The translations under genes were made by a program, and so were the position numbers. The notes under the pieces were generated by a model. It was given only the letters and a program-made list of their open reading frames with translations. It did not search any database and was not told where the DNA came from. From positions 310,001 through 374,000 of the forward strand of contig WIAF01000001.1 in NCBI GenBank assembly GCA_014055465.1: DNA of 64,000 nt, read 5' to 3'. Of this stretch, positions 17,637 through 21,748 are shown piece by piece. Every line of letters begins with the position of its first letter. The stretch's first letter is position 1. Source of the stretch: Nitrospira sp. CR1.1. Lineage in GTDB: Bacteria > Nitrospirota > Nitrospiria > Nitrospirales > Nitrospiraceae.

Positions 17637-18311
17637 CTATTTCACCTGCGAAAAATCAGCATCGAACTGCATGGTCTGACCATCTTGCAGGGTCACAATG
17701 ATCGCGGTTTTGGCATTGGGGTCAAACGACTCGTACCCGAACCGGGCCGTGAAACGCGACCGGTAGGCGGGACCCGTGCCGTCGTTTTTTCTCCCTCGAT
17801 CAGCCGGACTGAGATCGACCGGGCGGATATTCTTGCCCTTTTGCTGAAACACGACGTCCGCCTTTTCCGCGAAGTATTCGTCATCGCCGCAGAGTTGCAC
17901 TTCAACTTCCATATTCGGCATGTCCACGACTTTTTGGATAAACTCGTCGGGCATGCGCACCTCTTTCTTCTGCTTTTTCGATTCGGCCGCTTCCTGCCTG
18001 CCGAACGCCTCCAAGCGGTAGCGCTTGGTGCGCAGAATGGCGCTCGCGCCGCAGGGATCTTTTTCGGGATCTGCGCCGACTCGTGTGACGAGTGAGGCCT
18101 GCTGCAAGATTTTTTTCACGTCTTCCGGCGAACCGGCTTTCTCCATAGGCGCTCGCCCGACTTCCAAGGCCTTCTTGGCTTCTTCTGGCGACAACTTGAC
18201 ATCGATCGCCCACGCCGGCGCGCTGACTGCCAGCGCCATGGCTCCAACCACCAACCCGATTACCGCTTGAGTGTTTCTACGCCGACCTGCCCTGCCATCA
18301 TTCGCGCGCAT
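17637..18311 (-). CDS. Exported protein of unknown function
   Basis: A 224-residue protein with a signal peptide (RR in the n-region, hydrophobic AVIGLVVGAMALAVSAPAWA, cleavage after AWA). The mature part is highly charged: an alpha-helical Lys/Glu-rich first half, two Cys (DPCGAS and QLCGDD), then a probable beta-rich C-terminal half with FTARFGYESFDPNAKTAIIV. I do not recognise a family. It stands alone, bounded by a strong hairpin downstream and Maf upstream. Confidence 0.75.
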   Translation of the reverse strand: MRANDGRAGRRRNTQAVIGLVVGAMALAVSAPAWAIDVKLSPEEAKKALEVGRAPMEKAGSPEDVKKILQQASLVTRVGADPEKDPCGASAILRTKRYRLEAFGRQEAAESKKQKKEVRMPDEFIQKVVDMPNMEVEVQLCGDDEYFAEKADVVFQQKGKNIRPVDLSPADRGRKNDGTGPAYRSRFTARFGYESFDPNAKTAIIVTLQDGQTMQFDADFSQVK

Positions 18312-18416: not shown

Positions 18417-19049
18417 CTAGGAACTGAAGCGGTTCCAGTTGGGATAGGGTGTGCGGGCGTACAGCTGCTCGATGTCGACCGGACAGGGCATGCCGCGCTG
18501 CTGCAACATCTCAGCGACAAGCCGCAGCGGCAACCCCACGGCCGCGGTGTAATCGCCCTCGATCCGCTCAATCAGCTCGGCACCACCACCCTGAATAGAA
18601 TAGGCGCCGGCCTTCCCCAGACTGTCCCCCGTCAGCAGGTAGGCGGACAAGGCCTCTTCATTCAAGGGTTTCATCGAGACTGACACGATGGCGATCTGCA
18701 CCTCGGAGGGCTCAGGCCAGGGCCCCACCAGCGCAACGGCAGTAAAGATTTTGTGCGTCTGTGCGGCCATACGCCTGAGCATGGATTCAGCATCGGCCAG
18801 ATTGGCCGGCTTTCCCAGCACCTCCGAGCCAAGGCTGATCAGGGTGTCGCTGCCGAGGATAAGCGCATCGGGGCACTGCTCGATGCAGGATTTGGCCTTA
18901 CCTGCCGCAAATTCGACTGCCTGCTGCTCGGCTGACCTATTTGGCACCACCTGTTCGACAAACGGCGGGGCCGCGACGTCGAAGGGCAGCCCCAGGAGGG
19001 TCAATAATTCATGCCGTCTCGGCGAGGTGGAAGCGAGAATCAATCGCAT
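18417..19049 (-). CDS. maf: Maf-like nucleoside triphosphate pyrophosphatase
   Basis: A 210-residue protein of usual family length. It starts with the Maf motif MRLILASTSPRRHELL and has SDTLISL (catalytic Asp) and the DSLGKAGAYSIQGGG block. Family role: hydrolyses non-canonical or modified nucleoside triphosphates, usually dTTP/UTP or m7GTP, to monophosphates. Only 3 bases separate its ATG from the stop of the dihydrouridine synthase, so it is the third gene of an operon. Which Maf subtype it is cannot be fixed by eye. Confidence 0.93.
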   Translation of the reverse strand: MRLILASTSPRRHELLTLLGLPFDVAAPPFVEQVVPNRSAEQQAVEFAAGKAKSCIEQCPDALILGSDTLISLGSEVLGKPANLADAESMLRRMAAQTHKIFTAVALVGPWPEPSEVQIAIVSVSMKPLNEEALSAYLLTGDSLGKAGAYSIQGGGAELIERIEGDYTAAVGLPLRLVAEMLQQRGMPCPVDIEQLYARTPYPNWNRFSS

Positions 19050-19052
19050 GGG

Positions 19053-20237
19053 TTACGCAGCGGAGACGGAAGAGGTCTGTGCCGCAAGCGGAACGGGAAC
19101 AGACGCGTCTCGCTCCGACTGCATGAGGGCCCGGCAAAACTCGGCCACGATCCGCTCGACGTCCTGCACGTTGGACGCTCCGAACATCTTGCCCCGCATC
19201 GCCGCGGCATGAGGAAATCCTTTGCAGTACCAGCCCAGATGTTTCCGGATGGACCGGAACCGTTCCAGCCCGGCGATCGCTTCATACTGCCTGGCGTGGT
19301 CGAGCATGACTTGCATGCGATGGCTCACCGAAACCTGCGGCTCCCACGCGGTGGCGGGCAACGCGGACAGGTCTCCCTGCTCGCTGAACGCTCGCCTGGC
19401 CTGTTCCTTTTCCCGAAAGAACCAGGGCGATCCCAACGTTCCTCGTCCGACCAACACGCCCTGCACGTTACTCTCAGCCGCGCGCCGCACGGCATCGACT
19501 AAGGTACCGACATCGCCATTGCCCAGCATCAATGTCTCCGTACCACGGGCGAGCTTGGCCGCCTCGGCAATGGCCGTCCAATCGGCCGCGCCGCGATACA
19601 TCTGCTGCAAGGTTCGACCATGTACGGTGATGGCTGCGGGACGGACTTCCAACAAATGTTCCACCCATCGCTCAACCACCACGCAATCAAACCCCAACCG
19701 CGTCTTGATGGAGAGCGGAAGCAGCCGGCGTGGAACGACGGGCACGCCACACCGATTGTAGTTCAGCGTATGAATAAATTCGATGCGCGAGGGTTTAAAA
19801 CCCTGGCTGTGAATCGATTGCCCCCCGGCCCAATCCTCCAACCCCTGTCTGGATGCCCGCAGGATGGCATGGGCCAGATCCGGCGTCTTGATCAGCGCCG
19901 CCCCGGAGCCTGAAGCCGCGACGCTCTTCGACGGGCAGCCCATGTTGATATCAAGTCCGTCGAACCCGAGTTCGCAGACCACCTGCGCCGCGCGATAAAA
20001 CTGCTCCGGATCCTTGCCATACAGTTGGGCCACAATCGGCCGCTCGGCCTCACTGTAAATCAATGACGACAGCAGATGGTCCGGGCCACGGCAGATCTCA
20101 TTGACATTGGTGAACTCGGTAAAGGTGATGTCGGGCCGTCCCTGAGAGGCCACCACGCGACGGAAGGCGGCATCCGTCACCCCATCCATGGGAGCCAACC
20201 CTAAGATAGGTTGTGGCAACGCCGCCCAAAAGTTCAT
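19053..20237 (-). CDS. tRNA-dihydrouridine synthase
   Basis: A 394-residue FMN enzyme. The TIM-barrel start APMDGVTDAAFR, the catalytic Cys in NMGCPSKSVAASGSGAAL, the ITVHGRTLQQMYRG block and the GNGDV FMN site are all present. It reduces uridines in tRNA D-loops. Compared with typical Dus proteins there is an extra ~35-residue loop after the catalytic region (from about LEDWAGGQS to VPRRLLP). ATG 20237 overlaps the preceding stop by four bases (ATGA), coupling it to the MNIO-like protein. The exact subfamily is not assigned. Confidence 0.93.
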   Translation of the reverse strand: MNFWAALPQPILGLAPMDGVTDAAFRRVVASQGRPDITFTEFTNVNEICRGPDHLLSSLIYSEAERPIVAQLYGKDPEQFYRAAQVVCELGFDGLDINMGCPSKSVAASGSGAALIKTPDLAHAILRASRQGLEDWAGGQSIHSQGFKPSRIEFIHTLNYNRCGVPVVPRRLLPLSIKTRLGFDCVVVERWVEHLLEVRPAAITVHGRTLQQMYRGAADWTAIAEAAKLARGTETLMLGNGDVGTLVDAVRRAAESNVQGVLVGRGTLGSPWFFREKEQARRAFSEQGDLSALPATAWEPQVSVSHRMQVMLDHARQYEAIAGLERFRSIRKHLGWYCKGFPHAAAMRGKMFGASNVQDVERIVAEFCRALMQSERDASVPVPLAAQTSSVSAA

Positions 20238-21748
20238 GCCCGCGCCTCGGCCGATCCGACCGGCTCGTTCGCCTCGCAATACGCATGGCGTAGCGCTTCG
20301 GCCTCATTCAGGACGGTTATGGCAACGGTCGGGCACGTCTCCGTTGCAAACTCAACGAATCGATCGATCTTCAGCAGGAAAAAATCATAGTCCTCCTGCT
20401 CAGGTCTCGGCCGGCTAAACCAGAAGGGAACAAACCGTTCCAACGGAAGGTCCGCTCCTGCCAGAGCGCGGCAGGTTTCTGGAAACATGTCGTGCACATC
20501 GCCGCCCCAATGCAGTAATTCATGCGGCAGGTAGGTGTCTCGATACCGGTTGAGATCTTCCAGCGATCCGCCCAACAGTGACAGATCTCCCGGAGAGGGC
20601 AGAGAAGCAGGCGTGGTGACGAGTTGCGCGTAGGTCCGATACTGGTGCTGCAGAACCGCTTGTTCCTCCGGAGTCAGGCACGGTATCTCCGCAACCGGAC
20701 GGGCGATCGGCGGCCGTTGCGGGTGCAACGATGCGGGGCGTCCGCGGTGTACCATCTCATCAACCGTTGGTCCAAACCGATCGCAACATTGGCGGAACTC
20801 CTCAACGATCATCGCAATCGGCTTCGTATCAACTTCGAGCGCGACGCCTTTTAAGGCTGTCAGGCCGGGATGGGCCAGGACTTGATCCAGCAGGTCGAAC
20901 AAGACGACTGGAATCGGAGCCCCGTGGGCATCGATCCAGTATGGCAACGCAGGCTCACCCGCGGCGATTCCGGACGCGCGGGGATTCGCAAATTCAGCCA
21001 GTCCTGCAACATGGATCTCGATCACCCGCTCCATGGGAAACGCCTCCAAGAACTCGGCGGCGAAATCCTCCAACCGCTGTTGCCGCCAGCTCCCCGTGTA
21101 ACGATACACGGTCCACAGATGCCCGATATCCAGTACTAAGCCACAGGCCGACCGGTCGGTCACGGCGCGGAAAAACTCAGGAATCGCTAGCGCACCGCAG
21201 CCGAAATACGTGAGCGGCGGCATTTCCAAGAGAACCAGCGCCGGATCGATCACATGTTCTCGTGCATGCTGATCCACTCGGCCTTGGAGATAGGCGACGT
21301 TCTCAGCCGTCATCCTGGCTGACAACTCCGTATATAAAGGCGGCAGATAGGTACCGACCGCATAACCCGCCATCTGTTTCGTCGCGCATTCATGATTCAG
21401 CCAGGCGCTGTGCAAGGCTGCGATCTGCGCACAGGCTTCCGCCACGCCTTGTCGGCCGGAGCCACTGCGGGGGAACTCCGGTTGCGTACTCCACAAGCCC
21501 TCACCATGGTAGGAGAGCTTGATATCCGGCAGTTGCCGCCGCACCCACTGCAGAGCAGATGTCGTCGCTTTGAACACTTCCAGGTATCCCGGCTCCAAGT
21601 CCGTATCACGGAGCGCCTGAACCAGGTGCAGCAGATCCGGAGAATACACGTCCACGGACAGCCCCAGACCATGCGCAGGAAGGTTATTCGCACGTTGTGT
21701 GAATTCGCTTTTCATCAGACCGCAATTGGCATATTTTGGAACAATCAT
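20234..21748 (-). CDS. MNIO (DUF692)-like protein with C-terminal extension
   Basis: A 504-residue protein. Residues ~25-320 look like the DUF692/MNIO TIM barrel: YLEVFKA, a His in LSYHGEGLW, His in LHSAWLNHE, Glu in LLEMPP, LVLDIGHLW, EIHVAGL and WIDAHGAP supply the expected His/Asp/Glu metal ligands. Characterised MNIO enzymes are multinuclear iron oxidases that modify Cys, Asp or Asn residues of peptides. The last ~180 residues form an extra domain that might play the role of the usual separate partner protein; this is inference. No precursor peptide was found nearby. A TATAGT box ends 4 bases before the ATG and no ribosome site is seen, suggesting a leaderless mRNA. It is coupled to dus and maf. 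Confidence 0.75.
   Translation of the reverse strand: MIVPKYANCGLMKSEFTQRANNLPAHGLGLSVDVYSPDLLHLVQALRDTDLEPGYLEVFKATTSALQWVRRQLPDIKLSYHGEGLWSTQPEFPRSGSGRQGVAEACAQIAALHSAWLNHECATKQMAGYAVGTYLPPLYTELSARMTAENVAYLQGRVDQHAREHVIDPALVLLEMPPLTYFGCGALAIPEFFRAVTDRSACGLVLDIGHLWTVYRYTGSWRQQRLEDFAAEFLEAFPMERVIEIHVAGLAEFANPRASGIAAGEPALPYWIDAHGAPIPVVLFDLLDQVLAHPGLTALKGVALEVDTKPIAMIVEEFRQCCDRFGPTVDEMVHRGRPASLHPQRPPIARPVAEIPCLTPEEQAVLQHQYRTYAQLVTTPASLPSPGDLSLLGGSLEDLNRYRDTYLPHELLHWGGDVHDMFPETCRALAGADLPLERFVPFWFSRPRPEQEDYDFFLLKIDRFVEFATETCPTVAITVLNEAEALRHAYCEANEPVGSAEARA

Follow-up and report, generated by a model that had tools for sequence, protein, structure and literature searches.

A deeply conserved Nitrospira MNIO with a variant iron site, probably fused to its own partner domain

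The multinuclear non-heme iron-dependent oxidative enzymes (MNIOs) are a family with over 13,000 members that, to our knowledge, is known almost only from peptide natural-product clusters. Nitrospira are nitrite-oxidising bacteria, and the stretch of DNA analyzed here (the window) is 64 kb of the genome of Nitrospira sp. CR1.1 (contig WIAF01000001.1, positions 310,001 to 374,000; coordinates below are those of the window). It contains a gene for an MNIO with a long C-terminal extension. This is the sole MNIO gene of its genome and, as a first-pass annotation of the window had noted, no precursor peptide gene adjoining it was seen within the window. What we find is a fused MNIO that is deeply conserved and whose iron site is a variant one. 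Our best explanation, which we hold at even odds, is a self-contained MNIO with a built-in partner that likely hydroxylates a non-cysteine residue on a substrate encoded in trans. The gene and its parts are as follows.

20234-21748, reverse strand: fused MNIO gene, 504 amino acids; open reading frame (ORF) with an ATG start and without an internal stop; PF05114; AlphaFold2 model.
20753-21679, reverse strand: MNIO TIM-barrel domain, about residues 24-332, from VIA-align 2 structural matches.
20672-20743, reverse strand: variable linker, about residues 336-359, gappy in alignment A1, with a low-confidence core at residues 337-354 (predicted local distance difference test, pLDDT, below 50).
20264-20671, reverse strand: C-terminal all-helical domain, about residues 360-495, resembling TglI and DUF2063 (domain model, VIA and hhalign).

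The ORF is genuine. Relatives were found in 28 of 41 genomes in a first search and in 71 of 198 Nitrospirota genomes in a search with the profile of A1, so it is not a chance reading frame. A1 is an alignment of 19 fused relatives, from which L052 (one stop in the tblastn range) and a split gene of genome G032 were left out. The Pfam family PF05114 (MbnB_TglH_ChrH) matches all 19 members of A1, and in the window protein it matches residues 145-309 with 47.8 bits against a cut-off of 25; Pfam has no match for the C-terminal part. Matches to NCBIfam models are sub-threshold only, the best being ApyH with 37.6 bits against a cut-off of 400. Among solved structures, a sequence profile retrieved only 3bww (E 0.0012) and TglH (E 0.14), and a single-sequence search gave nothing useful.

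The AlphaFold2 model of the full-length protein has a pLDDT of 84.6 and a predicted template modeling score (pTM) of 0.87. Residues 14-332 of the model align in VIA with TglH (8hi7_B), the enzyme that acts with its partner TglI in the 3-thiaglutamate pathway, over 267 positions with a Z score of 26.5 and a root-mean-square deviation (rmsd) of 2.6. MbnB (7dz9_A, Z 24.3) and 3bww (Z 20.9) are also matched. With this predicted model as the query, MNIOs fill the first seven rows (Z 20.9-26.5) before the score falls to Z 17.0 in the eighth. Judged by the model, the window protein has the MNIO fold, its TIM barrel being of the TglH/MbnB type, in line with the first-pass annotation, which had proposed an MNIO-like oxidase from a His/Asp/Glu ligand pattern.

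Ligand positions of the iron site were assigned by aligning the protein with other MNIOs and by matching order and motifs to the published lists for TglH (His71, His107, Glu151, Asp184, Asn187, His216, Asp229, His231, Glu258; PMC10880893) and VcMbnB (His55, His91, Glu135, Asp165, Asn168, His194, Asp209 and Glu238, with His211; PMC8888699). All nine conserved positions hold ligand-capable residues in the window protein.

21506-21508, reverse strand: His81, predicted iron ligand (TglH His71 position).
21389-21391, reverse strand: Glu120, predicted ligand in place of the second His (TglH His107 position).
21224-21226, reverse strand: Glu175, predicted bridging iron ligand (TglH Glu151 position).
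21128-21130, reverse strand: Asp207, predicted iron ligand (TglH Asp184 position).
21119-21121, reverse strand: His210, in place of the Asn of D-x-x-N (TglH Asn187 position).
21011-21013, reverse strand: His246, predicted iron ligand (TglH His216 position).
20930-20932, reverse strand: Asp273, predicted iron ligand (TglH Asp229 position).
20924-20926, reverse strand: His275, predicted iron ligand (TglH His231 position).
20834-20836, reverse strand: Glu305, predicted iron ligand (TglH Glu258 position).

Each of these residues is invariant in 62 of 62 distinct fused proteins, a set that includes the L052 ORF and two proteins that end early at a contig end. His119, the neighbor of Glu120, is kept in 61 and is Gln in one. 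We regard the fold and this conservation as firm. The ligand pattern is thus retained, as first described, in that the nine positions are occupied, but two substitutions had gone unnoticed: the site departs from the usual one in having an acid at the TglH His107 position and a His at the TglH Asn187 position. The combination of His and Asn at these positions, as in MbnB, TglH, HvfB and BufB, is absent from all 62 fused proteins.

These two positions change together. In an alignment of 31 MNIOs (11 fused proteins and 20 others, six from Nitrospirota genomes and 14 from plasmids) 18 have the pair His/Asn, 11 have Glu/His and two have Asp/His, and no mixed pair occurs. The 18 His/Asn enzymes are of the bufferin, oxazolin and TIGR04222 types and include no fused protein; the two Asp/His enzymes are L157, from a Streptomyces plasmid, and L175, from a Piscinibacter plasmid. 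The pattern in this alignment suggests that the pair may be a mark separating MNIO chemistries. In the tree, which carries a long-branch warning, the 18 rows of fused proteins share one side of a 100/99 branch with L157 and L175, and L180, a D-x-x-N enzyme, falls outside. Because the tree groups the Asp/His enzymes with the fused proteins, the ligand swap need not have arisen more than once.

The same swap is present in PbsC, a Phe ortho-hydroxylase whose predicted ligands are H97, D133, E178, D213, H216, H247, D260, H262 and E290 (PMC12257519). This list has the order of the acid/His set and its D-x-x-H spacing, with a carboxylate at the second-His position and a His in D-x-x-H, as in the window protein. 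Since the window protein shares its ligand set with PbsC and not with MbnB, TglH, HvfB or BufB, we predict that hydroxylation or another C-H oxidation of a non-cysteine side chain is the most likely reaction. The first-pass annotation had recommended a search for Cys-rich precursors, a direction that is not favored by an iron-site variant shared with a Phe-hydroxylating enzyme and not with Cys-rebuilding MNIOs. PbsC differs from the Nitrospira protein, as far as the published ligand list allows the comparison, in that its carboxylate is Asp rather than Glu. It also differs in having a separate RRE-containing partner, PbsD, and an adjacent precursor, in a biphenomycin-like pathway (PMC12257519).

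About 170 residues lie beyond the barrel, close to the roughly 180 first counted. That enzyme and partner are united in the fusion, a possibility also raised at that stage, is now the best reading, with the C-terminal domain most like TglI. Modeled alone from 24 relatives, the domain is all helical (pLDDT 84.6, pTM 0.70). Its top VIA row is TglI (8hi7_A; Z 6.1, rmsd 4.5, 129 aligned), besides which just one row exceeds Z 5, and residues 15-152 of the domain model align onto TglI 1-156, that is, onto its whole N-terminal domain. Compared by hhalign with 15 DUF2063 domains, it scores 20.6 (E 0.011) and is co-linear over nearly its whole length. None of 200 column shuffles reached this score (maximum 19.7), a lenient control in that shuffling also destroys helix periodicity. 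With a smaller set of sequences the match had been weaker (E 0.048, probability 1.1%). The DUF2063 model itself, PF09836, does not match the window protein and matches one of the 19 A1 relatives at E 0.15; PME-type 2 partner proteins are defined by the absence of the DUF2063 signature (PMC12452194).

It could be argued that the C-terminal domain is an unrelated helical module, for example for dimerisation, given that the DUF2063 sequence match is weak and that helical domains match one another easily. This we consider unlikely: the top VIA row among the chains ranked is TglI, aligned over its whole N-terminal domain, the DUF2063 profile match is co-linear, and a search of the genome for PF09836 found no other partner gene. 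Although the lines of evidence are singly weak, we hold to the partner interpretation because the structure that VIA ranks first belongs to a protein partnering an enzyme of this same family. A partner-like domain related to TglI and DUF2063 is, in our judgment, likely, and the protein is probably an enzyme fused to its partner.

Partners of MNIOs (PME) are described as separate proteins (PMC12452194). A partner is needed for the active iron state, and an engineered HvfB-HvfC fusion is highly active (PMC13419390). That fusion resembles the Nitrospira protein in joining an MNIO and its partner in one chain, but it is engineered, acts on Cys and would be of the His/Asn type, to judge from its named ligands N175, D242 and H244 (PMC13419390). 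TglHI is similar in the barrel fold, in the order of the ligand positions and, probably, in the N-terminal domain of TglI, the nearest match of the C-terminal domain. In contrast, TglHI consists of two polypeptides, its ligands at the two variant positions are His107 and Asn187 where Nitrospira has Glu and His, and no TglA-like precursor was seen near the Nitrospira gene. The RRE-bearing second half of TglI is also missing here. An RRE domain consists of three helices and a three-stranded sheet, and the window protein lacks one because no strand follows residue 305 in the full model; the domain model is all helical.

Natural fusions of other kinds have been described. MovX has an extra C-terminal winged-helix/RRE-type domain (PMC12452194), PflD is fused to a nitroreductase (PMC12636437), and MovX and ChrH are named as exceptions to the rule of a separate partner (PMC13419390). 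MovX and PflD both act on non-Cys residues, as we propose here, but their fused domains are different and they are located in clusters for ribosomally synthesized and post-translationally modified peptides (RiPPs). In the part of the literature searched we found no natural MNIO-DUF2063 fusion and no paper on a Nitrospira MNIO.

ChrH is the closest of these in layout, with an MNIO barrel and a C-terminal helical bundle in one chain; the bundle is separate in Cyanobacteria and required there, and DybH is active without a separate partner (PMC12636315). The window protein could on these grounds be a ChrH-like enzyme acting on a C-terminal CPxCGxG motif. This is very improbable. The ChrH bundle is about 7.8 kDa and lies beside a CPxCGxG precursor, whereas the Nitrospira domain is larger (about 135 residues), TglI-like and without such a precursor. 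The NCBIfam ChrH model does not match the window protein at E <= 0.01. A pattern of CPxCGxG plus stop (TAG stops outside the pattern) has no match in the Nitrospira sp. CR1.1 genome, and overall the pattern and its reversed control were each matched in 4 of 24 genomes.

Grouping genomes at the family level (f1, f2, f3 and f20, where f1 is the family of the window, taken as Nitrospiraceae), the 71 matching genomes comprise 47 of f1, three of f3 and 21 of f20. All 47 sampled f1 genomes match, and no f1 genome is among the non-matches listed (all but 107), a list sorted by kinship that starts at 'same order'. Within the genus Nitrospira, 24 of 25 genomes match, the exception being G010, which is 88% complete and in 1030 contigs. 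Relatives at 62-80% identity occur throughout the genus, and the named loci belong to Nitrospira spp., Candidatus Nitrospira defluvii among them. In f3 the gene is patchy. In one f3 genome the fused MNIO is in two pieces, which overlap, are in different frames and include a stop (G032:C31:20487-21558; L029, L030, L127); this suggests from the sequence a recent loss of the gene in one f3 lineage. Some Nitrospirota genomes encode an MNIO of the ordinary kind (L134-L139) and a likewise ordinary DUF2063 partner (L142-L151) beside or instead of the fused protein. A search of IMG/VR found no viral relatives, and of 181 plasmid records none covers 80% of the query and all are below 60% identity.

The genes that follow the MNIO gene in the window are listed here.

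19053-20237, reverse strand: dus, tRNA dihydrouridine synthase (PF01207, E 6e-55).
18417-19049, reverse strand: maf, nucleotide pyrophosphatase (PF02545, E 2.8e-49).
17637-18311, reverse strand: ORF after maf for a 224-amino-acid protein with an apparent signal peptide (judged by eye).

The MNIO gene ends in TGA (20236-20234) and dus begins with ATG (20237-20235), the two codons overlapping in ATGA, and maf comes next, as originally read. The order MNIO, dus, maf and the 224-amino-acid protein is found in 22 of 23 named loci, the 23rd being interrupted by a contig end. The description of the locus as a tRNA-modification operon is only partly borne out: the gene order is kept in Nitrospiraceae, but at the f2, f3 and f20 loci examined the linkage to dus and maf was not found. 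There, one neighbor in f2 is a pseudouridine synthase gene and in f3 gltB/gltD adjoin the MNIO gene (named by eye from the translations), and in f20 the neighbor is a lipoprotein gene, overlapping or abutting, or a gene for a His-rich exported peptide.

The coupling to dus and the steady linkage might point to a role in tRNA metabolism together with Dus, or to action on the exported operon-mate, whose C87-G88 and C141-G142 pairs are invariant in 16 of 16 sequences (alignment A2) and which has no Pfam or NCBIfam match. We consider either quite unlikely. The linkage is confined as described above, the MNIOs of the cited literature modify peptides or proteins, and the 224-amino-acid protein keeps both Cys in G026, G029, G040, G202 and G209, each without a PF05114 match. 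Because both Cys persist in five genomes without any MNIO, we reject this protein as an obligate substrate; G035, which also encodes it with two Cys, is no test because it has a separate MNIO. A half-length paralogue of the 224-amino-acid protein is present in most Nitrospirales genomes searched.

The f20 loci offer other candidates. In the lipoprotein (alignment A4), C96-P97 and C123-x-P125 are invariant in 5 of 5 sequences. Its gene lies beside the MNIO gene in four f20 genomes and elsewhere in two (G058 and G103), so that the linkage is not universal. The second candidate (alignment A5) has the invariant motif CNHH..YYRRHHRCYP with two invariant Cys in 5 of 5 sequences, and its gene is within 7 kb of the MNIO gene in 6 of 7 f20 genomes searched. 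It is a small exported peptide in which an Ala/Pro linker is followed by a very His/Arg-rich part, resembling a metal-binding or MNIO-precursor peptide. The A5 genes near fused MNIO genes are at the following positions.

L121, 5700-6116: A5 peptide gene.
L122, 5310-5726: A5 peptide gene.
L119, 3474-3785: A5 peptide gene.
L117, 9622-9861: A5 peptide gene.
L124, 9171-9440: A5 peptide gene.

In 28 non-f20 genomes searched, A4 had no convincing match (two marginal matches contain stops), and in 18 non-f20 genomes A5 had none except in G098 (E 8.3e-4), which is apparently of low complexity. With no convincing homologue in the Nitrospirales genomes tested, both are rejected as general substrates, and they are candidates for f20 only. 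Together with the persistence of the Cys of the 224-amino-acid protein without an MNIO, this makes it probable that the Nitrospira enzyme acts on a substrate encoded at another place in the genome.

The f20 neighbors matter for another explanation, in which the enzyme is a Cys-modifying MNIO of the thiooxazole, oxazolone or norcysteine type with a Cys-containing exported substrate in trans, such as a metal-binding peptide. Cys is the target of most characterised MNIOs (PMC12452194), and in f20 the MNIO gene is either close to the gene of the His-rich two-Cys peptide or directly before that of the lipoprotein with its invariant Cys-Pro. This explanation is nevertheless rather unlikely. The 18 enzymes of the bufferin, oxazolin and TIGR04222 types in the alignment all carry His/Asn, unlike the ligand set here; the Nitrospirales genomes tested gave no convincing homologue of either f20 candidate; and the genome of Nitrospira sp. 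CR1.1 has no DUF2282 gene.

We return to the self-contained hydroxylase. In this proposal, the N-terminal TIM barrel would bind a two- or three-iron cluster through H81, E120, E175, D207, H210, H246, D273, H275 and E305, and the C-terminal helical domain would replace the separate subunit that other MNIOs need. With an RRE-free partner in cis, the enzyme is expected to be active alone and not to read an RRE-type leader peptide. It would most likely use O2 to hydroxylate a non-Cys side chain, or to oxidize a C-H bond of it in another way, and its target would be a peptide or protein whose gene lies elsewhere in the genome.

Several points weigh against this proposal. In f20, exported proteins with conserved Cys are encoded near the relatives, a setting that would fit an enzyme modifying Cys. 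The Z score of 6.1 to TglI is within the range about which the VIA tool warns for helical domains, and Foldseek alone ranks TglI second (E 1.1). The hhalign probability to DUF2063 is 3.9%, so that the partner assignment is not significant by sequence alone. The choice of E120 rather than H119 as ligand is inferred from the alignment, the acid/His enzymes may not be one clade because long branches meet in the tree, and the hydroxylase anchor is a single characterised enzyme, PbsC, with ligands from an AlphaFold 3 prediction (PMC12257519).

Three other MNIO loci were seen on plasmids. The Streptomyces locus (L157:2848-4449) encodes a 533-amino-acid MNIO with a different, long C-terminal extension, near genes for YcaO-like, MBL-fold and acyl-protein synthase proteins and a 51-amino-acid ORF that may be a precursor. 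The Piscinibacter MNIO (L175:3023-4888) adjoins a gene with a carbamoyltransferase domain and a 57-amino-acid ORF ending in SNKARQKPW, which recalls the SNKEWQE motif of the Std pathway. On a Tsukamurella plasmid (L181:1393-4369) a TIGR04222 membrane protein, a His/Asn-type MNIO and a 61-amino-acid ORF stand in a row, with no long partner gene.

The finding places an MNIO in every sampled Nitrospiraceae genome, where it has no natural-product cluster around it and an apparent activating partner built in; as a single protein, it would allow the role of the partner domain to be studied in the absence of an RRE. A broader view, that this is a core, vertically inherited Nitrospirota MNIO outside natural-product clusters, enzyme and partner in one chain, that hydroxylates a side chain of a house-keeping protein, is tentative and somewhat doubtful. 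If true, this would be, as far as the cited literature goes, the first case of an MNIO that acts on a cellular protein and not in RiPP biosynthesis. The swapped ligand pair would then be a sequence mark that tells C-H hydroxylating from Cys-rebuilding MNIOs, and the coupled swap may provide a simple rule for predicting which members of the family attack Cys and which hydroxylate other residues.

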